From positions 1 to 33,243 of the IMG/VR virus record IMGVR_UViG_3300010885_061961: a stretch of 33,243 nt of DNA; one strand, written 5' to 3'. The stretch comes from a virus. Of this stretch, positions 1 through 33,243 are shown piece after piece. The translations under genes were made by a program, and so were the position numbers. Positions within the stretch are counted from its first letter, which is position 1. Every line of letters begins with the position of its first letter. A model generated the notes under the pieces. It was given only the letters and a program-made list of their open reading frames with translations, was not told the DNA's origin and made no database searches.

Positions 1-22
1 CTTTTGATGTTGATGTGCTCAT
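1..22 (-). CDS. Possible start of a gene running off the left edge
   Basis: On the minus strand an ATG at 22 opens MSTSTSK and continues past the window edge. The 14 bases AAGTTATGAGCACA around this start are identical to those around the start of the gene at 2072, which supports a real initiation site. Only seven codons are visible, so no function can be given. Confidence 0.35.
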
Positions 23-43
23 AACTTGACACGGTTGACCTAT

Positions 44-457
44 ACACCGAAAGGTTTAAAAAGGTTACAATGGATATAATATTCAAACGCTTTGAGCCTA
101 AAACCCTATTTATAGTCGCTCAAACGACTTTAATGAAATATATGGGAGTGAAACTGAATAATCAGTAACCCCTCATTTAATAAAAAACTTGAGGAGTGGG
201 AAATTTGATACAGATTTGCATCAATTCCACCCCCCAAGTGGGAATTTGTGGGAGTTTCACCCACATAATAAGACTATAGTGGGAATTTTCACAGATGTGG
301 GTGAGTTGGGCAAGTAGGCACCTACCCACATCACTCCATTCTCTGGAAAATTCTCCAATATATAAAAGCAGCCGCAGGGGTAATCGACTCCCCTAAGACG
401 TGGTTCCCTTGGCTCTTTCGAGCTGTGACATCACCACAAGTATTAACCTTTCGGTGT
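44..457. repeat. 13-bp inverted repeat, arms 44-56 and 445-457
   Basis: ACACCGAAAGGTT at 44-56 is the exact reverse complement of AACCTTTCGGTGT at 445-457. In a minus-strand transcript the two would pair over 13 bp and close off about 390 nt, so this may be a long-range helix of the candidate structured RNA. It could also be a pair of binding sites. Confidence 0.55.
195..288. repeat. Three spaced copies of AGTGGGAA(a)TTT
   Basis: AGTGGGAA followed by A/T lies at 195-206, 237-247 and 278-288, spaced 42 and 41 bases apart. Copies one and two each pair with nearby CCAC/TTCC stretches, so the repeats probably reflect repeated hairpin arms near the 3' end of the candidate RNA. The units are too short and too few for a CRISPR array. 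Confidence 0.5.
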
Positions 458-546
458 CTTGACCGTCACGGCTGTTCCATCGTAGTTACGTCCACGCACT
501 AATCCCCCACACTCACGTAGTGGTCAACGGTTACTATTAAAGCGAA

Positions 547-562
547 TGTTCCACGTGGAACA
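547..562. promoter_or_regulatory. parS-like 16-bp perfect palindrome
   Basis: TGTTCCACGTGGAACA is a perfect 16-bp palindrome. It fits the bacterial chromosomal parS consensus (TGTTnCACGTGnAACA form) bound by ParB. No parA or parB gene is visible in the window. Because it lies inside the candidate structured RNA, it might instead be a hairpin with an ACGU loop. The match is certain; the function is not. Confidence 0.45.
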
Positions 563-1355
563 TACCACTCCATCCAAACATTCTACTGTTTGGTTTGCCT
601 TTGGGTTGAAGTAGTTCGTTTCACTTCTAAAGTTTAGAAGCAACATCCTTTATACGATGTATCCGTCTACCGACAAAGAATACGTAAACAGAGATTTCTT
701 GCGAAAGAAACCCGAGGCTACGCCCACGTATCCCTTTTAAGTTTGTCTAAGGCTAAGCAGTAACGTACCTGCTAAGATGGTTTGACCTCTTGCCAGTGTT
801 CCATCAACACTCCTACTTTCGTAGTCAAAGCCTCCGATGTTCTGTTTGCTAAACGTCCCACCATTGCTAAGGGTCATTTTCGGTTTTAACACGGTTACCC
901 ACTTAAGTTTGCTCTCTGAGAACAGAGACCATTCTAACCGTCCCGAGGTTTACCTACACATCAACCCAACGACTATTCTGTTCCACTAAGACAAGGGGCG
1001 TAGAACATTTCGCCTTAAGTTTCTCAGATTGTATAGACGGTGTACCCGTCACCAACGCGTGGATAGAGACTACTCCGAAGAGAGTCCAAGGCCTTACACC
1101 CACGCGTCCGTTTGTTACCATTAGTCGCAACTAAGGGAATATACAACGGAGTGCTTACATATTGAGTCTGTGCTCAAGTAATCTTTGAGATTGTCAACGC
1201 TAAGGTACGTTTGTAGAACTCAATCATAGATTACTCTTATGTCAAAGAACTTTGCATAGTTTTGCCATTCTATGCAAACCTTATCTGTTTCGGCTATTGA
1301 AGCCATCATCAGTCAACCTTACTTTGGTTGAGACAGAAATTTTTATTCCGTAAGT

Positions 1356-1382
1356 TTTGAAATTAGGGAGTGCGAAGTTATC
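1356..1382. repeat. Left arm of inverted repeat flanking the 1389-2072 gene
   Basis: These 27 bases are the reverse complement of 2112-2140 except for two single-base insertions in the right arm. The left arm lies 6 bases beyond the stop codon of the enclosed minus-strand gene. Confidence 0.8.
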
Positions 1383-1388
1383 GTTTAC

Positions 1389-2072
1389 TTACTTGCCCGA
1401 TGCAAGTTTCTTTTGTGCTGCTTTTTGGTCTTTTTCTTTCTTTTTTACTTCCAATCTCTTGTAGTGCACGCCTCTGTGAGTATCGGGTAGCATAACCACA
1501 GCCAACTCATCAATGATAAGTTTGTCCGCTGCTCTGTAATACTCATTTGATTTATCAGCCACCCTAACTTTAAGTTGCCCAAAGTCTAACGCTTGTACTT
1601 TTGTTATCGGGTTTTTAACTCCCAATAACTCTAGTACGCGTTGGTTTGTTAACTTTCCATTAGTATTTCCATAATGGGCGACCAACGCCATAGACGTCGC
1701 TGCTGCTGCTTCTTCAACTAGTATCTCAAAACTATTAGACTTGAAACCATTTGTGAACGGGTAAGTACACCCGTCTATCATAATGCTAACATCTAGGGAA
1801 GGGTGAAGATGTTCACACATCTTATCAATTCCCTTTGATATTTGATTTTCAAGTTTAGATAGCATATCAACTTTGAAAGATATAGTTCTAGGCTTCGCCT
1901 CTTTATCTTTTTTCAATTTAACCATAAAGCGAATTATGATTTCAACAAAATCTGAAATTTTGTTTTCTTTCGCTTTTTTACTCTTCGCCTTCTTTACTGT
2001 TTCCTTGTCTGAAGTAACTGTTTCAATAACTGTTTCAACGATATTTTCTTGTGCAATGTTTTGTGTGCTCAT
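1389..2072 (-). CDS. Unrecognised protein enclosed by an inverted repeat
   Basis: A 227-residue protein starting MSTQNIAQEN. I chose the ATG at 2072 because extending to 2081 would need a TTG codon. The first 60 residues are polar and lysine-rich (KKAKSKKAKENK), followed by a globular part with a stretch of small residues (EEAAAATSMALVAHYG, around residues 120-135) and a lysine-rich C-terminus (KKKEKDQKAAQKKLASGK), suggesting a soluble, possibly nucleic-acid-binding protein. I do not recognise the family. Two minus-strand promoter-like repeats lie at 2221-2385 upstream, and the candidate structured RNA lies directly downstream on the same strand, so the two may be co-transcribed. Base composition is somewhat richer in G+C than in the 2758-7711 genes. 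The 27-bp inverted repeat around it would bring the ends of its mRNA together. Confidence 0.85.
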   Translation of the reverse strand: MSTQNIAQENIVETVIETVTSDKETVKKAKSKKAKENKISDFVEIIIRFMVKLKKDKEAKPRTISFKVDMLSKLENQISKGIDKMCEHLHPSLDVSIMIDGCTYPFTNGFKSNSFEILVEEAAAATSMALVAHYGNTNGKLTNQRVLELLGVKNPITKVQALDFGQLKVRVADKSNEYYRAADKLIIDELAVVMLPDTHRGVHYKRLEVKKKEKDQKAAQKKLASGK

Positions 2073-2111
2073 AACTTTCAATTTAATTTGTGTGTGTTAA
2101 ATTTTGTTTAT

Positions 2112-2140
2112 GATAACATTCGCACTCCCGTAATTTCAAA
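2112..2140. repeat. Right arm of inverted repeat flanking the 1389-2072 gene
   Basis: Reverse complement of 1356-1382 with two one-base insertions (27 of 27 remaining positions match). It sits 40 bases upstream of the ATG at 2072, in the leader of the minus-strand gene. Next to it, at 2148-2163, is a TATAGTT-TT-AACTATA inverted repeat. Confidence 0.8.
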
Positions 2141-2227
2141 GAACTTTTATAGTTTTAACTATATTAATTTGCCTTATTCACTATCGAATAGAATCAATTA
2201 ACATAGTGCTATATTTTATTAACAATT

Positions 2228-2235
2228 CAAAGGTA
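2228..2235 (-). promoter_or_regulatory. TAnnTTTG promoter-like box, copy 1
   Basis: On the minus strand this reads TACCTTTG, matching the Bacteroidota -7 consensus TAnnTTTG. About 19 bases upstream is the conserved TAGTTAAAA box. It reads toward the gene at 2072 and the candidate RNA. A canonical TTG -33 box is missing. Confidence 0.5.
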
Positions 2236-2336
2236 TAAACGCATATGCGAGTATTTTTAACTACTAAAAAACTTAGTAGAAAAACTGGTTTAAGGTAGTT
2301 AACCTTTAACTCATTACCCTCAATTTGTTAACACTT

Positions 2337-2344
2337 CAAAGGTA
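2337..2344 (-). promoter_or_regulatory. TAnnTTTG promoter-like box, copy 2
   Basis: Second TACCTTTG on the minus strand, in the same repeat context as copy 1, again 19 bases from a TAGTTAAAA box. It lies 109 bp further upstream of the gene at 2072. Confidence 0.5.
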
Positions 2345-2385
2345 TAACCGCATACGGGAGTAGTTTTAACTACTAAAAAACTTAG

Positions 2386-2716
2386 CATTTTTGGTACTAA
2401 GGAATTTAGCAAAATTGCAAAAACGAGCAGGGCTGGTTTCATATCGACCCCAAAATCTACAAAAGTCCAATATATACTTATATACCACTACTCTCCTCCA
2501 ACCTTCTTAGCGACAACTCCTCTAATAGCAACTCAAGCACCACCACTCCCTACAACAATAGCCCAACAACATCATCACAGCCCCTCAGATGCCCAAATTT
2601 GCCATATCTTTGATCAATCAATACAAATACCTTAGTCAAACAGAATAAGACTTTAAATAGCTTTAAATTAGGGGGTGGGGTATTTTAAATAGTATTTTAC
2701 CTATGTACTTTTTTGT
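2386..2716. other. Gene-free spacer between divergent transcription units
   Basis: No supported gene. Bases 2476-2600 are strikingly poor in G and rich in A and C on the plus strand. A reading frame crosses this stretch to a stop at 2610-2612 but has no start codon. A plus-strand TATCTTTG at 2605-2612 fits TAnnTTTG and could be a promoter for the genes starting at 2758, though no upstream TTG box is evident. Confidence 0.5.
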
Positions 2717-2725
2717 ATATTTATA
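2717..2725 (+). promoter_or_regulatory. ATATTTATA motif upstream of the HExxH gene cluster
   Basis: ATATTTATA, 32 bases before the ATG at 2758. The same nonamer recurs ahead of several other transcription blocks in the window; proposed phage late-promoter core. Confidence 0.45.
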
Positions 2726-2757
2726 AAAGTATAGTGCAAAAAAAATTTTCAGAAAAA

Positions 2758-4095
2758 ATGAAGTTTGTTGATTTATTAGAACATATAGTAAAAGAAGCAT
2801 TGGGGGTCCCAGATGGGATATTAGAATCTGCGGAAGATTTATATAAAGATATTTTGGATCGTCTACCTTCACTTAAAAATAAAATTGATACAAGTAAAAA
2901 TGAGTTTAGATTGGAATTTGATAATTCTACGGGGTATAAGATAGGTGATTTAGTAATAAAATATGTTTCTGTTACTTTTAGATTAAAAAAAAATGGTCGA
3001 TACCTTTTAAATGGGTATGCGGTTAATCCACACCTAGCTCCTGAATTAAATCTTTATATTGATTTAATAGTACCAACTAATTGGAATTTTAATGAAGTAA
3101 TATATTTACTTATTTCAAAAGAAAAAAAGATAGTTCCTAGTATTTCTCATGAACTTATGCACGTATATGATTTTTATAAACGTAAGCACTATAACATATC
3201 AGGTATTGGGAAATATAATGTTAGAAATAGTGATGTTTTTTCAAAAATTTATCCAATAAGTAATTTTCTTAATTTATTATATTTTACACATTCTATTGAA
3301 AATGTAGTAAGGCCAAGCGAGTTTGCCTCTGAATTGAAAAAAAACAAAATCAATTTAAAAAACTTTTTAGAGTTTTTAAAAAGAGATGACACATATTATA
3401 CATTAAAACGAGCAAAAAATTTTTCTTATGAAGAATTAAAAAATGATTTGAAAAATTATATTCCAGAAATAGAGCTTGTAATTAAACATTTTAATGATGT
3501 AGGAAATACAGATGAAGATAAGATTGATAAAATTTTAGAAATGGTTAGGGATTATGTAAAAAATAATGTTGAAAAAAATCATAGTAATATGGTGTTTTTT
3601 GATGTAATTGGTAAAACGTATGGTGACAAAGGAAGATCAATGGGTTTAAATAAAGTTATTAAAACAATAGGAAAGTTTAATAGTAACGATGCTTTTTATA
3701 AAAACGAAGAAAAGATATTTAATGAAGTTGGAGATAAAATGATTAGAAAGTTGTCTAAGCTTTATGATACTACTTATAACAATAATTCATTTTACGGTAA
3801 ATTAATTAAAAAAACTTTAACTAAAGAAGAGTTAAATGTTGATGGTGATCTTAATTTATCAAATACTAATATAAAGTCACTACCAAAAGGTTTAGAAGTT
3901 AGTGGGGATCTTAATTTAATTGGGTGCACTAAATTAGAATCACTGCCTAGTGACTTAAAAGTTGGAAAAGATATTTGGTTGACAGGTACTCCAATAGCTA
4001 AAAAATACACTAAAGAACAATTCAAGAAAGGTAGGAAAAAATGGATTGAGAAAATATACCCAGGAGTATTTATAAAAAGAGATGTTTATTTATAA
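2758..4095 (+). CDS. HExxH putative zinc metalloprotease with leader and leucine-rich-repeat-like tail
   Basis: A 445-residue protein. The start at 2758 is chosen over the ATG at 2713 because it aligns the leader MKFVDLLEHIVKEALG with those of the paralogues at 4885 and 5948 and has an A-rich lead-in. The segment GVPDGILESAE follows the leader. HELMH (residues 131-135) and a Glu in the conserved PSEFAS segment (about residue 188) give the His-Glu-x-x-His plus distant Glu pattern of gluzincin zinc proteases; the proteolytic role is inferred from this. The C-terminal 75 residues hold two or three copies of a 20-22 residue unit (LKSLPKGLEVSGDLNL type) ending TPIAKKYT, a leucine-rich-repeat-like domain. 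The VKE near residue 13 resembles a prohead-protease site, suggesting packaging in the capsid. The gene is very AT-rich. Confidence 0.8.
   Translation: MKFVDLLEHIVKEALGVPDGILESAEDLYKDILDRLPSLKNKIDTSKNEFRLEFDNSTGYKIGDLVIKYVSVTFRLKKNGRYLLNGYAVNPHLAPELNLYIDLIVPTNWNFNEVIYLLISKEKKIVPSISHELMHVYDFYKRKHYNISGIGKYNVRNSDVFSKIYPISNFLNLLYFTHSIENVVRPSEFASELKKNKINLKNFLEFLKRDDTYYTLKRAKNFSYEELKNDLKNYIPEIELVIKHFNDVGNTDEDKIDKILEMVRDYVKNNVEKNHSNMVFFDVIGKTYGDKGRSMGLNKVIKTIGKFNSNDAFYKNEEKIFNEVGDKMIRKLSKLYDTTYNNNSFYGKLIKKTLTKEELNVDGDLNLSNTNIKSLPKGLEVSGDLNLIGCTKLESLPSDLKVGKDIWLTGTPIAKKYTKEQFKKGRKKWIEKIYPGVFIKRDVYL
4086..4094 (+). promoter_or_regulatory. Variant TTATTTATA motif before the flavodoxin-like gene
   Basis: TTATTTATA, one mismatch from ATATTTATA, overlaps the last codons of the gene at 2758 and lies 29 bases before the ATG at 4124. 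Weakest member of the set because it is partly coding and not exact. Confidence 0.25.
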
Positions 4096-8086: not shown

Positions 8087-8350
8087 TTAATGTATAGCGT
8101 TGATTAGTGCTTCATAGGTTGCCTTAGGTCGAACTCCTACTATCCTATTTACTTCTATTCCATCTCTTTCTATTATGATAGTAGGAACGCTATTAATGAA
8201 TTTCTGATTTGCAAATTCTTTATTAAAATCCACATCCACTGATTGGAACTGTGCTCTGCCCGTATATTGAACCTTTAATTGGTCAAATATAGGGGCTAAA
8301 GTTTTGCATGGTTCGCATTTCGTGGATGTGAATCTAATTACTTTTATCAT
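8087..8350 (-). CDS. Thioredoxin-like protein
   Basis: An 87-residue thioredoxin-fold protein. The start at 8350 (MIKVIRFTS) is preferred over the upstream ATG at 8392, because it begins exactly at the first thioredoxin strand and couples to the upstream gene through a TAATG overlap. Redox motif CEPC is at residues 12-15, and the conserved cis-proline segment SVPTIII lies around residues 54-60. Both active-site cysteines are present, so disulfide reductase or electron-donor activity is likely, for instance to ribonucleotide reductase or host targets. It is short for a thioredoxin (about 105 residues is usual), closer to glutaredoxin-sized phage thioredoxins. Confidence 0.88.
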   Translation of the reverse strand: MIKVIRFTSTKCEPCKTLAPIFDQLKVQYTGRAQFQSVDVDFNKEFANQKFINSVPTIIIERDGIEVNRIVGVRPKATYEALINAIH

Positions 8351-8637
8351 TATCTTTCGTTTAATGCGATAAAAGTGAAGATGTACAAGCATATTAGCAT
8401 TATACCGAATACTCCGTAAGTTACTGATACGCCTAAGTTACCCCTGGTGTCAGTACCTGTTACTTTCGTAGGGTCTCCTTTCACTCCTCCGGCCATAATA
8501 CCTGCTAAAATTGCTACAGGAATTGGTGTAAAATACAAATAAAGCTTAGGGAATTCGGTGTAAGTACATAAATAAACTTGTCCCATTGTTAATCCTAGGA
8601 TGATTGCTGCTGCTAAAAACGTTAAAAAAGACTTCAT
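8350..8637 (-). CDS. Small membrane protein
   Basis: A 95-residue protein with three hydrophobic segments: residues 4-25 (FLTFLAAAIILGLTMGQVYL), 33-51 (YFTPIPVAILAGIMAGG) and 70-92 (VSVTYGVFGIMLICLYIFTF). A polar loop of about 18 residues separates the last two. It lies in a minus-strand block with the thioredoxin and overlaps it by one base. Three membrane spans and small size are compatible with a holin, but nothing specific supports that and the endolysin is elsewhere (22407). Confidence 0.75.
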   Translation of the reverse strand: MKSFLTFLAAAIILGLTMGQVYLCTYTEFPKLYLYFTPIPVAILAGIMAGGVKGDPTKVTGTDTRGNLGVSVTYGVFGIMLICLYIFTFIALNER

Positions 8638-8662
8638 GATGCTTGTTTTTTATTGGTTTTTG

Positions 8663-8953
8663 TTAATTTTCTGTGTTTTCTTGTACGCTTTCTTGCGTAT
8701 CTAAGTAGTTTTCTAACAATTCTGATAGGTCATTTAGGACAATAATGTCTGTTTTTAGTTCAGGTTTGATGATTTCTAGTACTTCAAACACTGTTTCTGC
8801 AGCGTCTTCTATGCTTTCTACGTCGATTTCGTCTGTTTCTTCGTCAAAAATTTGGCTAATTGCGGAATAAATTAGCGAATTTGTGAAGTCAGATAGCTCA
8901 AGTCCTTCGCTTTTTTCTAAAAAAGCATTGATTTCTTCCTTAAAATTCTTCAT
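8663..8953 (-). CDS. Small acidic protein, function unknown
   Basis: A 96-residue, strongly acidic, mostly helical protein (EEINAFLEKSEGLELSDF near the N-terminus, DEETDEIDVESIEDAAE in the middle, ending ESVQENTEN). No family recognised. It sits between the MmcB-like gene and the membrane-protein gene in the same orientation with gaps of about 22-25 bases, so it is probably in their operon. Confidence 0.75.
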   Translation of the reverse strand: MKNFKEEINAFLEKSEGLELSDFTNSLIYSAISQIFDEETDEIDVESIEDAAETVFEVLEIIKPELKTDIIVLNDLSELLENYLDTQESVQENTEN

Positions 8954-8975
8954 AATATTTTTGTTTTTTGTAAAG

Positions 8976-9542
8976 TTAATACCTTTCTAACAATAAATCT
9001 CTATATCTGTGATAAAATTTATCTAAAAGTATAGATTTTAATCCGTCTACGGTCTTTTCTTTGTGAATAAATGGTGCTTCTTTAGCTATAATTGGCATTT
9101 TATCAAAGGATTCTATCTCAATTAGCCCAGCATATTCAGGAATCATAGACGTTGCTAGTAGATTTCTAGGGGCCGCATAGAAGAATTTGTTCGGTCTTTT
9201 GCTGTTATTTGTGTCTATTTTTGATTCTAGGAGGATATGTTTGTCTTTTTTGTTGAAATCATCCTTGAAATCACCCCTAGTAACCTTGATTTCGATCTCA
9301 TATACATATCCGGATTCGGATACAGTGAAGAAATCTGACTCCCAATCGTAAATAAAAGCATTATTTATCTGATAGGTGTGGTTGGCAAACTTCAATCTAA
9401 GAGCCTCTATTATGTCTTTTGATGTTATTTCTTCTGCATTTCTTACAGCAGTTATGTTCTTTATGGACTTCTTTTTCATGTAGCTTGGCTTCACCAAGTC
9501 AGATTTCCCCAAAGAACTAAAATTTATTAACGAGTCTGACAT
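8976..9542 (-). CDS. MmcB-like / PD-(D/E)XK nuclease-fold protein
   Basis: A 188-residue protein. After a basic N-terminal stretch comes SKDIIEALRLKFA (about residues 41-53), a helix typical of MmcB-family proteins, then a D-x-x-S-x-F strand, then EIEIKVTRGDFKDD (about 82-95). The last segment has the E-x-K core of the PD-(D/E)XK nuclease fold and the R-x-D-F signature of the MmcB family. NKFFYAAPRNLL and AGLIEI complete the fold. Such proteins are linked to DNA repair in bacteria and are common in large phages; a nuclease role on DNA is inferred. The 62 bases between this start and the 9605 gene hold AT-rich sequence with a TATATACGTATATA palindrome at about 9565-9579. Confidence 0.72.
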   Translation of the reverse strand: MSDSLINFSSLGKSDLVKPSYMKKKSIKNITAVRNAEEITSKDIIEALRLKFANHTYQINNAFIYDWESDFFTVSESGYVYEIEIKVTRGDFKDDFNKKDKHILLESKIDTNNSKRPNKFFYAAPRNLLATSMIPEYAGLIEIESFDKMPIIAKEAPFIHKEKTVDGLKSILLDKFYHRYRDLLLERY

Positions 9543-9604
9543 AATATTTATTTAAATGATAATATATACGTATATACTATGGTTGACCTAAATTCCTAGA
9601 TTTT

Positions 9605-11101
9605 TTATCTTCCGATTCTTTCTTGAATTTTACGTGCATGTTCTTCACCCCACTTTTTCTCATCTGCTGCTGAAGTTGGATTACTTGCTCTATGTCCTTT
9701 GTTTACGTTTTTTAGTTTATCTAAATAATTTCTAAATACGTCTGTTGACATTTGGGCAAATTTTGCAGCATATGCTTTTAAGTCATATGACCCGTTATAC
9801 GAAGGATAAAAACAAGTAGTTGTGACACTACCAGGATTGCCATCAGCATCAGAACCTTTTGTTTTTATTGTATTGGGTATTACATGAAACAATACTTCCG
9901 TCAATTTTTTGAAATCATTTTGGTTCAACCCGAATCCCTTTTTACCGGACTTCATTAATTTAAACTCATATTGTATAAAAGGAACCATACTTAAAGATAA
10001 ATTTTTGATGCCCTTTTCTTTTATGTATTTTTTTAATTCATCTTTACCTTTAGTACTTCCTCCTGCTGTTCCCTCATCTAGTATTGTTTTGCCTAACAAC
10101 CCCTTTCCATCTAAATAATCTAAATACTCATTCCAGGCTTTTCTTTGATCTTCTGTAGTTTCTTTATATCCTGTTGGCATAATAGGTTCGCTTCCCCCCG
10201 TATACTTTAAAAACTCAGGATCTGTGCTTTTATATTCATCATCACTTTTTGATAATGCACCTTTGATTACATTTTTTAATTCTGTTGTATCTCCCTTTTT
10301 TAATTCCCCTACTTCTTTTTTTACTGATTCAATTTTGTCCTTAGGAATGGAATTTGCAACAGTATTAGCTTTTGCTTTATTCATTCCAAACGAGGAAGCT
10401 AAAATAATAGCTAAGGTTGCTGCGGTTTCTTTAAAACCCTCATCTAATGTCTCCTGTTGCTCATAGATATAATCTATAAGTCTTTCATCAGTAATTTTAC
10501 CTTCTTCAACTAATTCTACTAATATTTCTGTTAATTTCATTTTATTTTTTTTGTCAGGCACTTCTTTGGGGTACGTAAAAATTTTATGAGCCCCCCCAAT
10601 AGGAATTTCTCCTGTATAAATTAAATAAGATTTATCTCCTTTTTCTATAAATTTATAATCAGGTATTTTATTTAAATTATTTTTAACTAGATTATTATAA
10701 ATTCTAGTTCTTTTAGACTGAATATCACTACTTAAACTTAATTTACCTTCTTTTTTAGAAAACCATCCCGAGTATTCTATTGCTTCAGGTTTAAACTCTT
10801 TAATAAACTCATATGAAGCTTTAAGAACAGTTGCTAATACCTTCAAAGAATCATAATCATTAGTATCTATTACACCCCTATCATCTTCAAATGTACAATA
10901 AGAAGTCCAATTAATTTTATACCCCTCTATTGTTTTTTCTGAGTATATAGAAGAATACTTAATAACACACTCATATTTTGATTTGGGTGTGAATTTATAG
11001 GAAACATCACTCCACACAGGTGTAGGTTTTCTAATAATAGGTTTTGAAAGAACATAAGCAGAATTTAAATCAATAGCTTCTAATATACTAATAAATTTCA
11101 T
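9605..11101 (-). CDS. Two-part phage protein with leader and possible internal start
   Basis: A 498-residue protein starting MKFISILEAID; ILE followed by Ala fits the I-x-E prohead-protease site. Residues 30-160 resemble a domain often seen in large phages with a conserved D-x-L-K-V-L-A-T-V-x-x-x-x-x-x-F-I-K pattern followed by RTRIYNNLV; its function is unknown. At residue 188 (ATG at 10540) a second, complete leader starts: MKLTEILVELVEEGKI, preceded by AAAAAATAAA, a lead-in like those of true starts here. The rest (311 residues) has a hydrophobic small-residue helix TAATLAIILASSFGM and a C-terminal globular part ending EHARKIQERIGR. The frame may encode two proteins or be a fusion of two adjacent genes. 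It overlaps the upstream gene by TAATG. Confidence 0.75.
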   Translation of the reverse strand: MKFISILEAIDLNSAYVLSKPIIRKPTPVWSDVSYKFTPKSKYECVIKYSSIYSEKTIEGYKINWTSYCTFEDDRGVIDTNDYDSLKVLATVLKASYEFIKEFKPEAIEYSGWFSKKEGKLSLSSDIQSKRTRIYNNLVKNNLNKIPDYKFIEKGDKSYLIYTGEIPIGGAHKIFTYPKEVPDKKNKMKLTEILVELVEEGKITDERLIDYIYEQQETLDEGFKETAATLAIILASSFGMNKAKANTVANSIPKDKIESVKKEVGELKKGDTTELKNVIKGALSKSDDEYKSTDPEFLKYTGGSEPIMPTGYKETTEDQRKAWNEYLDYLDGKGLLGKTILDEGTAGGSTKGKDELKKYIKEKGIKNLSLSMVPFIQYEFKLMKSGKKGFGLNQNDFKKLTEVLFHVIPNTIKTKGSDADGNPGSVTTTCFYPSYNGSYDLKAYAAKFAQMSTDVFRNYLDKLKNVNKGHRASNPTSAADEKKWGEEHARKIQERIGR

Positions 11102-11943
11102 TAGTCTCTTTTTAAACGCACTTTAGCCTTTTTTGTATTTGATACAAATTGTTTTCCTTTTTTAGACGCAGCCACCTTCTTTCTAGAAGTAGCGGCTCTT
11201 TCTTCTTTAGACAAGCTTTCAGCTTTAGCACGAGGTAAACATCTAGTTGTAGGTCTGCCCTTTTTCATAGTCCCACAGGGGCCTGCAATATCTCCTTGAG
11301 TATCTATCCTAACCCAATCTTCTTCAGTAAACCAATCGTGGAGGGATTCCTTTAACTGTTTTTCTTTTTTTAATTTTTCAGTTTTTCTTTTAGAGGCTTC
11401 TTTTATCTTATTAATAAAATCTAAACCATGCTTTAATCTTTCTTTAACATCAGGATTTTTAGCATTTTCATAAGCTGCTTTTAATCTCTGCTGAATCAAA
11501 TTAATAATTTGAGACTGTCTAGCGTGTGGTTTGGATTTGAATGATTCTTTTGATAAAGTATCTCTTATGTCTTTTACAGTCTTAAACTTAACATGTACTG
11601 TATCTTTTGGATTCTCATCCGTATACAATCTTCGATCCGATCCCTTAGGCTTTTTTCCGGTTCCTTCTTTAGGGTCAGCTTCGTATATGAAATTATCTAA
11701 TTCAATATCATTTTGATCTACATAACCACATGTTTCACACTCTGCTATATTTTGCTCGTGAACTCTTCTTAGTTTTTTTCTTTTTTTCTTTTTTATCCTC
11801 CCATTACAAACTTGTACTGCCCTACCCGATAAATAAGCTGATGACTTCTCTCCTGCTCTCCTGCGTTTATTGTAGTAAGCCCTGCCTCTAGGGCAGAGTT
11901 TAGCTTCAATAATTAAGTCTTGTAATATCTCTAGTAGTTGCAT
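11101..11943 (-). CDS. Basic DUF5872-type protein with leader
   Basis: A 280-residue, very basic protein. The leader MQLLEILQDLIIEAK has IIE followed by Ala, a good match to an I-x-E prohead-protease site. Next is LCPRGRAYYNKRRRAGEKSS with C17 and then C46 (VQVCNGR), a motif seen in phage and giant-virus proteins, then a C-x-x-C pair at residues 69 and 72. The C-terminal part has DWFTEEDWVRI, GPCGTMKKGRPTTRCLPRAK and SLSKEERAATSRKK, which I recognise as DUF5872. Cys and basic residues suggest a metal-binding, nucleic-acid-associated protein; together with the leader this fits an internal head protein. Function is otherwise unknown. Confidence 0.75.
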   Translation of the reverse strand: MQLLEILQDLIIEAKLCPRGRAYYNKRRRAGEKSSAYLSGRAVQVCNGRIKKKKRKKLRRVHEQNIAECETCGYVDQNDIELDNFIYEADPKEGTGKKPKGSDRRLYTDENPKDTVHVKFKTVKDIRDTLSKESFKSKPHARQSQIINLIQQRLKAAYENAKNPDVKERLKHGLDFINKIKEASKRKTEKLKKEKQLKESLHDWFTEEDWVRIDTQGDIAGPCGTMKKGRPTTRCLPRAKAESLSKEERAATSRKKVAASKKGKQFVSNTKKAKVRLKRD

Positions 11944-11955
11944 ATTGAGTTATGT

Positions 11956-13380
11956 TTAGAATAATGGAGTCCACGTAGAACCATTCCAATAATATGGTTT
12001 ATTATTTGCACCGCTTCCGGATACAGCAAATGAACCTGTCGGGACACTTACTGTTGGTAGTGGATCTGATATAGCTAAAGTAAGTATTTTACCTATAGTC
12101 ATACTTCCTGTAGCATCAACCACTATTCGCTGATTTCCTGACCCGTCCGCTATAATAACTGTGTTGTCTAGCGAAGATGATAAACCTCCAATTCTAGCGC
12201 CAATTAATGTGTTGTTGCTACCTGTCAATATGCCATACCAAGTAGCAGCTCCTAGAAATGTGTTGTAGGAACCCTGTCCAAAATTATTTGCCGCAGGTTG
12301 ATTTGGATCTATGGATGAATACGCCCCCAAAAATACATTGTAGTCCCCAGAATATCTGAGATAAACACCCGCCCCCGAACCAACAGCGGTATTGCCACTA
12401 CCTGAAGTGTTGTATATTAATGCTTGGACCCCTAAACCGGTATTATTAGACCCCACACTAGTCCAATCTAGGGTCTGTCCACCAAGCGCTGTATTGGCTC
12501 TACCTGTAGTAACCCTTCGCATTATCCCATTGCCTCCACCAAGTGCTGTGTTCCAATCACCTGTAGTACCTGTAGATATTTCTCCTAATCCATAAGTTAC
12601 CTCATATGGATAATTAGCAGTAGATATAGATAAGTTATTACGTATACTACCACTACCATTATTAATTTTAACGGACCCAATTCTAGCATAATTATAAGAA
12701 CTAGTATTAGTAAACAGGTCTAGCGACCCAGTCAAAATAAAATTACCTATAAATCTACCTGAGCCTGATACATCAAAATTATAAGTAGGGTCAGGGTTGT
12801 TAATACCAACCTTCCCGTTTACTGAACCTGAAGTTGGATTTCCACCCAATACAGAATTAATTCCTGATGCAAATAATACACCTCCCAAGTTAATAGAGTT
12901 AGATACTGCATTTCTTAAGGTTATATTATTGCCTATAATTATATTATTTCCACCTATAGTAGATCCACTTACTGCCTGCCCTGCCTTGTATCCAATTAAA
13001 ATCGAATTAGCCGCATTTTGGGCACCATTTCCGGCATAGTAACCTAAGAATATAGATCTTTGGGTATTAGCTGCATTATAGCCCGTATATGAGCCTATAA
13101 ACACCGAATCGTTAGCATAGGTAGCACCATTACCTGCATTATATCCTATGAAATAGGATTTAGCTGCCTGGGCTGCGTCTTTACCCGCATTGCTGCCTAG
13201 CAGTATGGAGTTATCCACATTGAACCCAGTGGTCCCAACCACTGATCCTCTTGTGTATATAGTAGATCCTTGAAGAGATATAGAACTGCTACTAGATAAC
13301 GATTCTAAGTAATCTAAGTTAGCATCCCCTTCAGCAAAAGTTAGGGGACGTCCCTTTACTAATCTTTTAGTTAATCCCAT
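11956..13380 (-). CDS. Tail fibre / adhesin with YadA-head-like repeats
   Basis: A 474-residue protein. It begins MGLTKRLVKGRPLTFAEGDA followed by NLDYLES, an N-terminus common to phage tail-fibre proteins that dock on the virion. Residues 50-150 carry about six units of 15-17 residues (N-S-I-L-I-G-Y-N-A-G style: SYFIGYNAGNGA, SIFLGYYAGNGAQN, SILIGYKAGQ). Residues 260-400 carry more (NTALGGG, NTGLGVQAL, NTAVGSGAGV, NTFLGAAT). These resemble the left-handed beta-roll repeats of YadA-type trimeric adhesin heads. The C-terminus ends PYYWNGSTWTPLF, typical of phage fibres. Host-surface binding is inferred. It is on the opposite strand from the main tail module, 12 bases before the DUF5872 gene. 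Confidence 0.8.
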   Translation of the reverse strand: MGLTKRLVKGRPLTFAEGDANLDYLESLSSSSSISLQGSTIYTRGSVVGTTGFNVDNSILLGSNAGKDAAQAAKSYFIGYNAGNGATYANDSVFIGSYTGYNAANTQRSIFLGYYAGNGAQNAANSILIGYKAGQAVSGSTIGGNNIIIGNNITLRNAVSNSINLGGVLFASGINSVLGGNPTSGSVNGKVGINNPDPTYNFDVSGSGRFIGNFILTGSLDLFTNTSSYNYARIGSVKINNGSGSIRNNLSISTANYPYEVTYGLGEISTGTTGDWNTALGGGNGIMRRVTTGRANTALGGQTLDWTSVGSNNTGLGVQALIYNTSGSGNTAVGSGAGVYLRYSGDYNVFLGAYSSIDPNQPAANNFGQGSYNTFLGAATWYGILTGSNNTLIGARIGGLSSSLDNTVIIADGSGNQRIVVDATGSMTIGKILTLAISDPLPTVSVPTGSFAVSGSGANNKPYYWNGSTWTPLF

Positions 13381-13388
13381 AATTTTAT

Positions 13389-13763
13389 TTATTTTCTATA
13401 CTGAGCCTCAGTAATAATTCCTGCTAGAAACAACGCTCTTTTATTTTCAGTTATAACTTCATCAGGTATATTAGTTTTTTCTTTTTGTAACTCACGCGTA
13501 GCTTGGGTTAAACCTGATATCTCTTGATTAAGATCTGCAGAAAATTGTTTTAGTATAGCCAAGATAGCATCTTTAACTTCTTTAGAACTATCAATTTTAG
13601 AATAGTACGGTGCCAAATTTTTTGCCATACTATCTAGTTTAGCTATAAAGCCCTTTGCGTCAGGAGAAACACCGGTACTTGCTTGAGTGGCGTTGTTATC
13701 TTGTTCTACTATTGACCTAACGTATCTTCTTATATCACTTTTGAATTTAGCTTCAGATTTCAT
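13389..13763 (-). CDS. Small helical protein heading the minus-strand block
   Basis: A 124-residue, helical, charged protein (MKSEAKFKSDIRRYVRSIVE at the start; TQATRELQKEKTNIPDEVI then ITEAQYRK at the end). No family recognised. It is first in the minus-strand set 13389, 11956, 11101, 9605 with gaps of only 8-12 bases or overlaps, so it is probably co-transcribed with the fibre. IVE at residues 18-20 could be a prohead-protease-like site, but the preceding residues do not match the shared leader. A variant late-promoter motif lies 17 bases upstream of its start. Confidence 0.75.
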   Translation of the reverse strand: MKSEAKFKSDIRRYVRSIVEQDNNATQASTGVSPDAKGFIAKLDSMAKNLAPYYSKIDSSKEVKDAILAILKQFSADLNQEISGLTQATRELQKEKTNIPDEVITENKRALFLAGIITEAQYRK

Positions 13764-16677: not shown

Positions 16678-18332
16678 TGGCAGAAAATGATTTGAAAATA
16701 GGTACTAATGCCATGTATGGTGAAGGAGGGGCCTCTAATGGTAGATTTGTTTCTCCCGATGTTGTGCAATCTATAGCCAGGGTTAGTTTTGTTTTATTAG
16801 ATGATTCAAATAAAGCTAAATTTGACGAACTAGGCGGTTGGAAATCAATAGGTGCTGTTGAATGCAAAACATTTATAAACAACAGCAATCCTGAAGCTAA
16901 GCCTATTATAGCTTTCCCAAATAGGACTTCTCTAAACCACTATCCTTTAGTTAATGAATTAATATTAGTAACTCAAAACGTTAGTTACAGGGCCCAAGGA
17001 GGGGCTAGTAATTATGAGCCTAGATATTACTACACTACTGTAATACCTACTCAAAATTCAATAGAACACAATGCTACTCCTGATGAAACTTTTTTCAAAA
17101 ATGGAGAAGAGAGGGTAACTGGTGATTTTAATGAAAAAGGGGATATAAATAGAAAAATTAAAGCTCCTGGTGATATAACCCTAGAGGGTAGAAGCGGACA
17201 CTCTATTAGATTGGGCGCATCTATTGATAAGTTCAACAGCCCTTTCTTAGGTCCTGATAGATCTCCCCTAGTTGTCATATCAAACAATCACCATAAATCA
17301 ACTAATAATAAGATTGCTAATTTTGAAGATATAAATAAAGACGGTTCTTCTTTGTTTATGTTAAACAAACACAGTGTGGGATTTGAGCCATCTAGTTTTA
17401 ATTTTGATTCATACGGAGAAGATGTTGCTAAGACTGTAAAAAGTAATTATGTGGAGCCTACTGTCGTAGCTGACGCTGCCCCTAATGTAGAATCATCTAC
17501 CAATAGCAATGATCAAAAAATAAATACAGTTGTTGATACTACACCGATTATAAGACCTGTAGAAGCTATTACAGAAGCTATTGAGACTAATAGAGTTAGT
17601 GAGGATGAGTCTAGATTACCTTCTGCTGAATCTGATGAGGAGTATGTTTCAGAAACTGAATACATTAACTTTACAGAACAGGTAATTCAGTATGATAATC
17701 TAGTAGAAGATGATAGCAATAGAGTAGAAACTAATGTGTCTAATATACCAACCGTATACACTAAAACAATAGGGTTGACAAGTACAGTTACAATTGGTAA
17801 AGACCCCGTAAATGTCCCTAAAAGAATAGCTCAAGATAAAAGATTTAGAAACTTTATAGCTAAGCCTGGTGTACATGAAAAAGTAAAAAGTATATGTTTA
17901 ACTAAAGGCTGTAGTATTGAAAGTTTATATATTATCATGTATGCCGAAAGCGGGTTTCAAACAAAAATAGTCAACTCTGTTAGAGCAACGGGTTTAATCC
18001 AATTTATGCCAAAAACAGCTCAAAATTTAGGAACAACTGTTGAAAAATTAGCTACTATGGATGAGCTTACACAATTAGATTATGTTGCAAAATATTTTTC
18101 GGGTACGAATAAAAAACTAAAAGACGTTTACGATTTATATATGTATACTTTCTTTCCCATAGCTGTAGGAAAACCCTTAAATTGGATTATACAAGCTAAA
18201 GGGTTATCAGCAGAACTTATATCTAAGCAAAACCCGGCCATAGCTAGAGCCGCAGGAAAAAAAGCAGGGACGCCTTTAACAAAGTATGATTTTTACAAAT
18301 ATGTAGATGGTTTATTAAAATCAAAAATTTAG
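16677..18332 (+). CDS. Baseplate hub / central spike protein with lytic transglycosylase domain
   Basis: A 551-residue protein. Residues 1-130 look like the gp5-type OB-fold hub domain of T4-like baseplates, followed by GDITLEGRSGHSIRLG (about residues 163-178), a segment typical of gp5-like proteins. Residues 250-370 are an acidic, low-complexity linker. Residues 390-550 form a transglycosylase SLT domain: catalytic Glu424 in IIMYAESGFQ, then ATGLIQFMPKTAQN, the usual G-L-x-Q-x-M-P-x-T-A signature. It would cut peptidoglycan glycan strands during tail penetration. T4 gp5 has a lysozyme domain between hub and needle; here an SLT domain sits at the C-terminus instead, and the needle may be the separate next gene. 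Confidence 0.82.
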   Translation: MAENDLKIGTNAMYGEGGASNGRFVSPDVVQSIARVSFVLLDDSNKAKFDELGGWKSIGAVECKTFINNSNPEAKPIIAFPNRTSLNHYPLVNELILVTQNVSYRAQGGASNYEPRYYYTTVIPTQNSIEHNATPDETFFKNGEERVTGDFNEKGDINRKIKAPGDITLEGRSGHSIRLGASIDKFNSPFLGPDRSPLVVISNNHHKSTNNKIANFEDINKDGSSLFMLNKHSVGFEPSSFNFDSYGEDVAKTVKSNYVEPTVVADAAPNVESSTNSNDQKINTVVDTTPIIRPVEAITEAIETNRVSEDESRLPSAESDEEYVSETEYINFTEQVIQYDNLVEDDSNRVETNVSNIPTVYTKTIGLTSTVTIGKDPVNVPKRIAQDKRFRNFIAKPGVHEKVKSICLTKGCSIESLYIIMYAESGFQTKIVNSVRATGLIQFMPKTAQNLGTTVEKLATMDELTQLDYVAKYFSGTNKKLKDVYDLYMYTFFPIAVGKPLNWIIQAKGLSAELISKQNPAIARAAGKKAGTPLTKYDFYKYVDGLLKSKI

Positions 18333-31453: not shown

Positions 31454-33243
31454 ATGTCAGCATATAAGAGATTAAATAATTCAGATGTAATATTATTACC
31501 TTACGTAGCAAATAAATTATGGGAGTATAACTCTTGTAGTTTAAGTGGTAGTGGGGTGTATGTATTTACGGGTAAAAAAATGTCAGGCAGTTTTGATCCT
31601 AGTAATGAATTAAAATTTAATGGAAGATATGAAAGACTTGTTTATGATTCTATCAATCACTTATATTATCAAGAGTATTCAGGTTCATTATTGGACAATC
31701 ACTCAAATTTAGCAGGAACTAGATACTCTAGTTCAACTAATATAAGACCATCAGCGTCTTATCATGACTACACTAAGGTGGGGTACATGTTTAAGGATTT
31801 TCCCGAATCATACGGTTCGGAGATAAAAGTAATATCTATATCTAAAGATTTAGCAGGATCGGCAGTACATCCCGGATCAATCAACATATCATCATCAACT
31901 TACCAAATAACTGATGATAGAAAAGGTAATCTGTACGACAATAGCGGTAGTTTTGTGGGAAATATGTTTTATCCTCACGGTATTCTAATAATAACTAATC
32001 AGGATTATCAAAATGCTTTCCCTATTCCACCATACGCTAAAGACGATTATGTTGAGTTTAAACAAACAAATAATTATAAAAGAGTATACCCTTTACAAAA
32101 TGATGATGCAAAATCTTGGAATAAAGTTAATAGTTCTATAATTTTATCAGGATCAGATGCCTCATATTTTACTAATAATTTTGATGGTTCTCTAACTTTC
32201 AACTACAATCAGCCTGGTATATATAATACTAGTTATAGATATAGTAGCACGTCTCCTAATGGAGATTGTTCTCTTCCTTCAAATTATGCTAAAATAGTTG
32301 TTAAGATAATAGAATATTCTTGTAATTTCTCAATAAGTGTAGAGGATGTTACTCCTGATGTAACACCATCTCCCACGCCTACTAGTACTGTTACTCCTAC
32401 AGTCACAATTACACCCACACCAACAAGAACTCCAACTGTTACTCCAACAGTAACACCTACTATAACACCTACAGCTACAAACACACCTACTGTAACACCA
32501 ACTAACACACCAACTAATACGCCTACGGGAACTCCATATCCTACAGTAACACCAACAAAAACACCTACTAGAACGCCTACAAATACACCTACTGTAACAC
32601 CTTCAACAACAGTTGGATTTGTTCCGTCGGCTACACCTACTAACACACCAACTAATACTGCAACACCGAGTATAACTCCGAGTATCACTCTGACTAATAC
32701 CCCCACAATAACACCGAGTATTACTCCTAGTATAACTCCAACTACAACACCTAGTATAACACCGAGTATTACGCCTAGTATAACTCCTAGTATAACGCTT
32801 AGCGTAACCCCGACTATTACTCAAACACCAACTGTTACTCCAACAGCAACACCTACTATAACACCAACTGTTACTCCAAGTATAACATTAACTGCTACTC
32901 CTACAATAACACCAACTGTTACTCCAACAGCAACACCTACTATAACACCAACTGTTACTCCAAGTATAACATTAACTAGAACACCTACTATAACACCAAC
33001 TGTTACTCCAAGTATAACATTAACTAGAACACCTACTATAACACCGAGTATCACACCAAGTATAACACCAAGTATAACACCGAGTATAACGCCTAGTGTA
33101 ACACCTACAATCACAGTAACACCAAGTATAGGATCATCACCAACGCCTACTCCAACCGTTACTCCGACAATTACAGTAACACCAAGTATAACGCCAAGTA
33201 TAACCCCAAGTACTACTCCGACTATTACTCCAAGTATTACTCC
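31454..33243 (+). CDS. Partial virion protein with Thr/Ser-Pro repeat stalk
   Basis: An open frame from the ATG at 31454 to the end of the window (596 codons, no stop), so the gene continues. It begins [20 protein letters not shown]; the first 290 residues are a beta-rich globular part with similarities in style to the preceding structural proteins (YLNY/SGS-rich). From about residue 297 (near 32341) it becomes almost pure Thr-Pro repeats of four residues (V/I-T-P-T/S; also NTPT, RTPT), a low-complexity extended stalk. Two Cys residues (SSCSL-like NGDCSLPSN and EYSCNFS) lie just before the repeats. Such PT-rich stretches usually act as linkers between domains, so a receptor-binding or carbohydrate-related domain may follow beyond the window. 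Confidence 0.8.
32341..33243 (+). repeat. 12-nt coding repeat array (x-Thr-Pro-Thr/Ser)
   Basis: Imperfect tandem 12-nt units of the form ACACC(A/T/G)A(G/C)TATAAC or similar, each encoding four residues with Thr-Pro. Larger identical blocks are nested inside it: a block starting ACACCAACTGTTACTCCAAC near 32825 recurs near 32909, and one ending CCAAGTATAACATTAACT occurs three times between 32870 and 33025. The array reaches the end of the window. Confidence 0.85.

Follow-up and report, generated by a model that had tools for sequence, protein, structure and literature searches.

A large structured phage RNA in a transcription unit that is probably organized like an rRNA operon

Among described phage RNAs, GOLLD and ROOL are the nearest to the locus reported here, and the consulted parts of PMC12286853 suppose an assembly or scaffold role for them. 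The RNA at this locus resembles them in size class, in being phage-encoded, in its elaborate structure with tetraloops and pseudoknots and in having no known function. It differs in that neither the window analysed here nor its relatives gave an Rfam match to these families, and in an ORF-enclosing helix, a boxA-like leader, a Pistol end and a parS, none of which is mentioned for GOLLD or ROOL in those parts of PMC12286853. A second point of comparison is the leader of rRNA operons: in the sections of the two sources used here, boxA goes together with a leader–trailer helix that RNase III cleaves (PMC10250234), and genes other than those for rRNA can have boxA-like sites upstream as well (PMC5725501). 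The phage locus likewise has a boxA-like GTTCTTTGA followed by a long covarying leader–trailer helix, with tandem promoter-like repeats upstream, but the phage helix surrounds a protein gene and not the structured RNA, which comes after it, and the product has no Rfam rRNA match. Mycobacteriophages with parABS, as presented in the excerpted text of PMC7157519, also have a non-coding RNA beside the partition site, but they have their own ParA and ParB genes, and their parS repeats are different ones.

The stretch of DNA analysed, hereafter the window, is a 33,243-base virus fragment (IMGVR_UViG_3300010885_061961). Its far end (32401–33243) is the Thr/Pro-repeat-rich end of a 596-aa open frame with a GC skew near −0.55, and a minus-strand block with tail-spike-like genes (8087–13763), where relatives have largely other genes, lies beside an otherwise plus-strand structural region. 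The baseplate wedge protein is 47% identical over its full length to that of Flavobacterium phage immuto and 65–74% identical to those of the closest ~23 uncultured viral contigs; the phage behind the window appears to infect Bacteroidota-type bacteria. In our view, a single transcription unit of a Bacteroidota-type myovirus probably takes up the minus strand from about position 2,385 to where the record stops, expressing a structured non-coding RNA of ~1.25 kb in the manner of an rRNA operon.

The body of the RNA spans positions 130–1355 of the minus strand, as delimited by the lack of ORFs and by folding and helix statistics. A preliminary description of this DNA had proposed a giant minus-strand RNA at 88–1335, within about 1.3 kb free of reading frames, richer in G+C than the AT-rich genome around it and holding more than a dozen perfect helices. 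Quantification bore these features out: no frame within 88–1335 exceeds 58 aa, GC content is 0.435 versus 0.313 for 1389–33243, and 15 perfect helices of ≥7 bp form between arms no more than 60 nt from each other. In 100 dinucleotide shuffles, such helices averaged 3.5 and peaked at 7; a coding control of the same length had 4. The three outer helices singled out at that stage (891–897/935–941, 1055–1062/1100–1107 and 1161–1167/1218–1224) consist of perfect Watson–Crick pairs throughout. Full-length MFE z-scores of 88–1335, from two runs of 12 shuffles each, were −8.2 and −6.9 for the minus strand and −4.4 and −4.4 for the plus strand; four control segments, on both strands, ranged from −0.6 to −3.6. 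Hairpin scanning of the minus strand recovered the two GAAA loops (813–824 and 412–423) and the C(UUCG)G loop (1073–1082) noticed earlier, together with a GCAA loop (695–706), and the plus strand has one GNRA hairpin, overlapping one of the minus-strand tetraloop hairpins. As a feature the interval 88–1335 is real but somewhat narrow, since the unit has its start at about 2,385 (minus strand), in the promoter region, and its 3′ pairing partners, at 44–56 and 34–40, come close to the end of the record.

The preliminary description had also taken the RNA to be possibly one of GOLLD or ROOL, and that identity found no support. The Infernal search for GOLLD, ROOL and OLE that it had named as a check, run with Rfam 15 over the whole window at the gathering cut-off and over positions 1–2700 at E up to 10, returned no match to them; the sole Rfam 15 match across the whole window was a Pistol ribozyme, and the RNAs of four relatives gave no Rfam match of any kind, to GOLLD, ROOL, OLE or otherwise. 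A divergent GOLLD or ROOL below Rfam's reach would agree with the similar size and phage setting, with a function likewise not known and with the lower conservation of the 5′ part of GOLLD (according to the consulted parts of PMC12286853), but the window has no tRNA genes and no large-RNA family was matched at E up to 10, nor in the relatives, and we regard this explanation as highly unlikely. No nucleotide homologue of the region was found among 50,697 phage records, and comparison with 46 records related through the wedge protein produced short matches only, at chance level or later explained (that in record G067 is the boxA element). The RNA bodies of the window and its relatives do not align: nhmmer found no match between them, and a covariance model of the four relatives' RNA (R1), run with filters off against window positions 1–3000, reached a best E of 0.53. 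Our preferred reading is that the window RNA is a new class of giant phage RNA; the large structured RNA of the earlier claim is supported by its folding, a ribozyme at gathering level, synteny with four relatives and a covarying leader helix.

Those relatives came from a comparison of six stretches around the equivalent place, with gene order fixed by shared genes. Four of them (L233, L235, L236 and L237) resemble the window in having a gene of 175–229 aa followed, on its own strand, by a stretch without ORFs whose GC content is mostly above that of its surroundings, and position and orientation of the structured RNA agree among the five phages; L234 and L238 have no such stretch within the part examined. 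A profile of L233 and L235 matches L237 (E = 5e-68) and L236 (E = 5e-9). The core of the four RNAs aligns (alignment A4) and contains an H-type pseudoknot and hairpins, with 9 of 33 pairs changed on both sides and 92.2% of cells paired, versus 34–47% with slid partners. That count excludes the RNAalifold helix 4–10/170–177, which uses the same strand as the pseudoknot, and the L236 row was left offset by one column in helix 1; RNAalifold alone gave 7 of 35 pairs changed on both sides. Folded at full length, the RNA strands of the relatives have z-scores (−2.4 to −3.5) no more extreme than those of coding controls, and in L236 the opposite strand folds slightly better than the RNA strand. A pattern specific to the core occurred in three of 2.9 million viral contigs, all already known, and at three unrelated-looking places in bacterial genomes: the relatives' RNA family is rare.

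Two further observations concern the relatives' RNAs. The 5′ part in L233 and L237 holds a tRNA T-arm-like GCGGTTCGATTCCGC between CCCTT-like and AAGGG-like arms, and the L236 RNA has a similar T-arm plus a further tRNA-like stretch; ARAGORN called no tRNA at these pieces in L233, L237 and L236. A small ORF in the ATGTCTGTT segment, judged by eye, was dropped as a candidate because changes there are not concentrated at third positions.

Upstream of the RNA lies gene A (1389–2072, minus strand; 227 aa, with a basic tail and no family match), which sits in the loop of a 27-pair helix between its leader (2112–2140) and a trailer directly after it (1356–1382, both minus strand). We evaluated this leader–trailer helix as the pairing of 48 nt from the boxA core onward with 48 nt beginning at the gene A stop codon. 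All five phages form it (22–27 bp, −34.0 to −41.3 kcal/mol), and in each of them 0 of 1,000 shuffled trailers were as stable. Leaders and trailers swapped between phages (20 pairs) reached −11.6 to −24.0 kcal/mol, and in the 5 × 5 table every leader and every trailer pairs best with its own partner. Because the strands have diverged yet kept their pairing, the helix shows selection on RNA structure in the window itself and not only in its relatives. Covariation in homologues, another check named in the preliminary description, was therefore found in part: it is present in the core of the relatives' RNAs and in the leader–trailer helix of all five phages, including the window, but the body of the window RNA has no alignable homologue. 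The inverted repeat 1355–1376/2119–2140, once a candidate promoter motif, was dropped in that role when it proved to be this covarying helix.

No relative of the window's gene A was found in viral contigs or in phage records. The gene A copies of the window and of L235 have no detectable homology to those of the other three relatives, shuffled copies scoring equal or better, and AlphaFold modelled gene A products poorly, with mean pLDDT of 39.2 and 48.9. Beyond the RNA, the next gene starts at 1–22 (minus strand; ATGAGCACATCAACATCAAAAG, MSTSTSK...) and runs off the end of the record; a 14-mer, AAGTTATGAGCACA, comprising its first bases and the five before them, repeats the start of gene A.

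An RNA body without a homologue might also be what is left of a decayed gene or gene cluster, its GC-rich remains folding by chance, and one weak covariance match does lie inside a protein-coding frame on a Nitrospiraceae contig. The excess of helices, the tetraloops, the compensatory changes in the relatives, the window's own covarying leader helix and an intact-looking Pistol ribozyme all speak against decay, which we hold to be extremely unlikely. The Nitrospiraceae match itself (L419, 6472–6670; 24.9 bits with model R1, including a part outside the search pattern) falls in a frame that we take to be YdcF-like and that stops before an exosortase-like gene. Lying in a protein frame and preselected by pattern, it was rejected as an RNA homologue and is treated as chance or unexplained.

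The 5′ strand of the leader–trailer helix overlaps a boxA-like element, AAAGTTCTTTGAAAT, in the gene A leader (2133–2147, minus strand). We take GTTCTTTGA to be boxA from its position and from the E. coli and B. subtilis boxA sequences. In every one of the four relatives, the stretch examined has the extended pattern GTTCTTTGA[AC]A a single time, on the RNA strand and shortly before gene A. The pattern occurs twice in the window, where the second element, AAAGTTCTTTGACAT (1239–1253, minus strand), lies inside the RNA, is found in the window only and had no helix partner that we could find; as an 11-mer, it has 8 occurrences in the 2.33 Mb of loci L001–L199. The exact 9-mer GTTCTTTGA is present in 5 of 8 Bacteroidota 16S leaders, 122–221 nt before the 16S start, and is missing in exact form from those of Flavobacterium (one leader), Chryseobacterium and Flammeovirga; these 8 were drawn from roughly 19 Bacteroidota rows listed and located by a 16S start sequence. 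With up to one mismatch, boxA-like sites occur in 21 of 50 related records and a reversed control pattern in 15 of 50. Inspection of seven of the regions and of the immuto stretch placed several boxA-like sites ~30 nt before ordinary genes and gave no helix partner that clearly surpassed six shuffled leaders, the pairing at the L448 site being slightly better than in shuffles (−23.5 versus −21.8). With boxA-like sites elsewhere having no clear helix, it is the combination of boxA and helix, and not boxA alone, that is special to this RNA. In the isolated Flavobacterium phage immuto (NC_055915.1), a boxA-like CGTTCTTTGAAATA lies at about 20343, 12 nt after a tRNA-Cys gene.

Direct repeats, in 2–3 copies, occupy the divergent intergenic region upstream of the leader in all five phages. 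In the window, two 62-nt copies that are 90% identical lie at 2324–2385 and 2215–2276 (minus strand), each with TACCTTTG (at 2344–2337 and 2235–2228, respectively), which resembles a −7 box pointing to gene A and the RNA and suggests that the repeats are promoters. On the assumption that TAnnTTTG is the Bacteroidota −7 box, the RNA strand within 500 nt before boxA has 2, 2, 0, 3 and 3 such boxes in the window, L233, L235, L237 and L236, and the opposite strand 1, 0, 0, 0 and 0; L235 has no exact box. A conserved DNA block (GCAGG..TATCGACCCCAAAATC..CAATATATA..TATATAC, 2426–2487) aligns in the window and all four relatives and anchors the homology of the locus.

At its other end, the RNA of the window runs into a Pistol self-cleaving ribozyme (RF02679; 62–129, minus strand). 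The Rfam match covers 129–66 at full length with 43.8 bits versus a gathering cut-off of 34.5. It leaves P3 poorly paired, and pairing GGGUU (106–102) with AACCU (66–62) by hand extends the ribozyme to 62; P1 and the loop pseudoknot (UUUGAGC/GCUCAAA) are intact. With about 40 nt between its end and the start of the next gene, the ribozyme is placed between the RNA and that gene. Its setting differs from that of most other viral Pistols examined, which directly abut ORFs: of 36 stretches retrieved through the Pistol motif, only L004/L028 and L014 have an ORF-free run longer than 600 nt ahead of the ribozyme, and no similarity to the RNA was found outside the ribozyme. A search hooked on the tail-fibre protein yielded no Pistol above the cut-off among 41 records. 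In the relatives, the RNAs end in a terminator-like hairpin and not in a Pistol.

Sequences on the two sides of the ribozyme can pair. A 13-nt segment, ACACCGAAAGGTT (445–457, minus strand), is perfectly complementary to AACCTTTCGGTGT (44–56, minus strand), downstream of the Pistol and upstream of the next gene, a match equalled by 1 of 1,000 shuffled leaders, and a fold of 600–1 adds 7 bp between GUUGACC (522–528) and GGUCAAC (34–40, both minus strand). Since these pairings reach across the ribozyme, the next mRNA's leader would stay attached to the RNA after Pistol cleavage; the 13-bp and 7-bp pairing may thus hold it there, as judged from a single sequence. The perfect complement, the ribozyme so close to the start codon and the location of Pistols in other viral contigs, mostly next to ORFs, could also mark the whole RNA as a cis-regulatory leader like those of riboswitch- or ribozyme-controlled mRNAs: an extended 5′ UTR through which ribozyme and 13-bp pairing control the gene that starts at 22. 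A length of 1.2 kb far exceeds what such a leader needs, however, and in the relatives the RNAs stop at their terminator-like hairpins and the downstream genes differ, which makes a purely regulatory role distinctly unlikely.

Within the RNA gene lies a 16-bp parS-type palindrome, TGTTCCACGTGGAACA (547–562), which fits TGTTNCACGTGNAACA, presumably the parS consensus; no such palindrome arose in 100 shuffles of the window. Among 239 sequences, such sites occur, one each, only in the window, its own locus L001, L233, L235, L236 and L237. In 50 related records, many of them fragments that may not cover the place, GTTYCACGTGRAAC was present in exactly the four with the RNA, and its reversed control in none; none of 30 Pistol-bearing records has a parS-type site. 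Chromosomes are expected to hold such sites, and a 1.77-Mb Prevotella record does have a pair of GTTTCACGTGAAAC sites separated by 744 bp; two smaller Bacteroidota plasmids have none. The relatives' form on the RNA strand, TGTTCCACGTGAAAC, would contain a C–A mismatch unsuited to an RNA hairpin, which is why we interpret it as a site in DNA; a terminator-like hairpin lies ahead of it in L236, so that parS there may be outside the RNA. The palindrome is of the same type as in chromosomal ParABS systems, differing in being a single site in a phage, with no phage ParB found: no ParB_N domain was detected in seven related records, of which W01 and W02 are complete genomes and five are fragments. 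Phage phi29 has a parS that binds host ParB, and the site at 547–562 is probably a landing site for the host protein.

parS-like sites are not rare in viral contigs generally. A survey with parS as the hook covered at least 120 stretches, with at least 142 site readings, at least 72 of them in ORF-free gaps, overlapping palindromes being counted twice; the 16 parS loci checked contained no Rfam large RNA. In G111 (L249), a viral contig of 169,219 bases, there are seven parS-like matches, six (at 6, 482, 2145, 2664, 3336 and 169043) within about 3.4 kb of the contig ends and the seventh at 18149, and L303, L332 and L336 have 5–7 parS-like sites. L338, a viral contig, holds at least three perfect parS palindromes in a structured ORF-free region of ~1.3 kb (11107–12500). 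A parS-bearing gap of the phage-like contig L354 (432–1191) has a minus-strand z-score of −10.3, due to long inverted repeats.

The position of parS, 1.5–2.5 kb from the divergent repeat region, raises the alternative that the locus is a replication-origin and partition module, in which the divergent region would be the phage origin, the RNA would prime or regulate replication and parS would let host ParAB move or hold the genome. In four of the five phages, the cumulative GC skew is lowest inside the divergent region or no more than about 0.35 kb from it, and mycobacterial prophages replicate via a non-coding RNA proximal to parABS (in the portion of PMC7157519 used here). The switch in skew tracks the switch in gene direction and may be only that, however, and is absent in L236; the search for ParB_N in the related records was negative; and the repeats resemble promoters at least as much as iterons. 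We see this module as a possible explanation, somewhat on the unlikely side.

On the preferred reading of a transcription unit in the rRNA-operon manner, the tandem promoters in the direct repeats would start the unit, and the boxA-like signal would let host RNA polymerase pass a long, structured, untranslated RNA by antitermination. The 27-bp leader–trailer helix would loop out gene A; RNase III could cut it, giving the 5′ end of the RNA, or the helix might merely insulate the RNA. The 3′ end would be made by the Pistol, or by a terminator in the relatives, and an active Pistol would free the RNA from the downstream gene's mRNA. As to what the RNA does, our first guess, by analogy, is a scaffold or assembly RNA like GOLLD and ROOL, and our second that it acts in replication and partition with ParB. 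At its most extended, the proposal is that the phage has built an rRNA-style operon for a non-ribosomal giant RNA, with host boxA antitermination, a pre-rRNA-type helix, 3′ trimming by its own ribozyme and a host parS inside the gene, the whole serving as RNA factory and segregation anchor; this we put forward as speculation that is rather unlikely to hold in full. We found no description in the open-licence literature of boxA, a leader–trailer helix, Pistol or parS together with a giant phage RNA, and we know of no described counterpart to a coupled RNA-and-centromere module.

Giant phage RNAs still lack a known function, and one reason is that neither a protein partner nor a signal for expression has been tied to them. 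This locus offers several such handles, all predicted: besides parS and a protein gene transcribed together with the RNA, there are a signal for antitermination by the host, a helix for processing and a ribozyme at the RNA's end. If the rRNA-like leader alone is real, it shows how a phage gets a long structured RNA transcribed; if host ParB binds at parS, giant RNAs would be linked with genome positioning.
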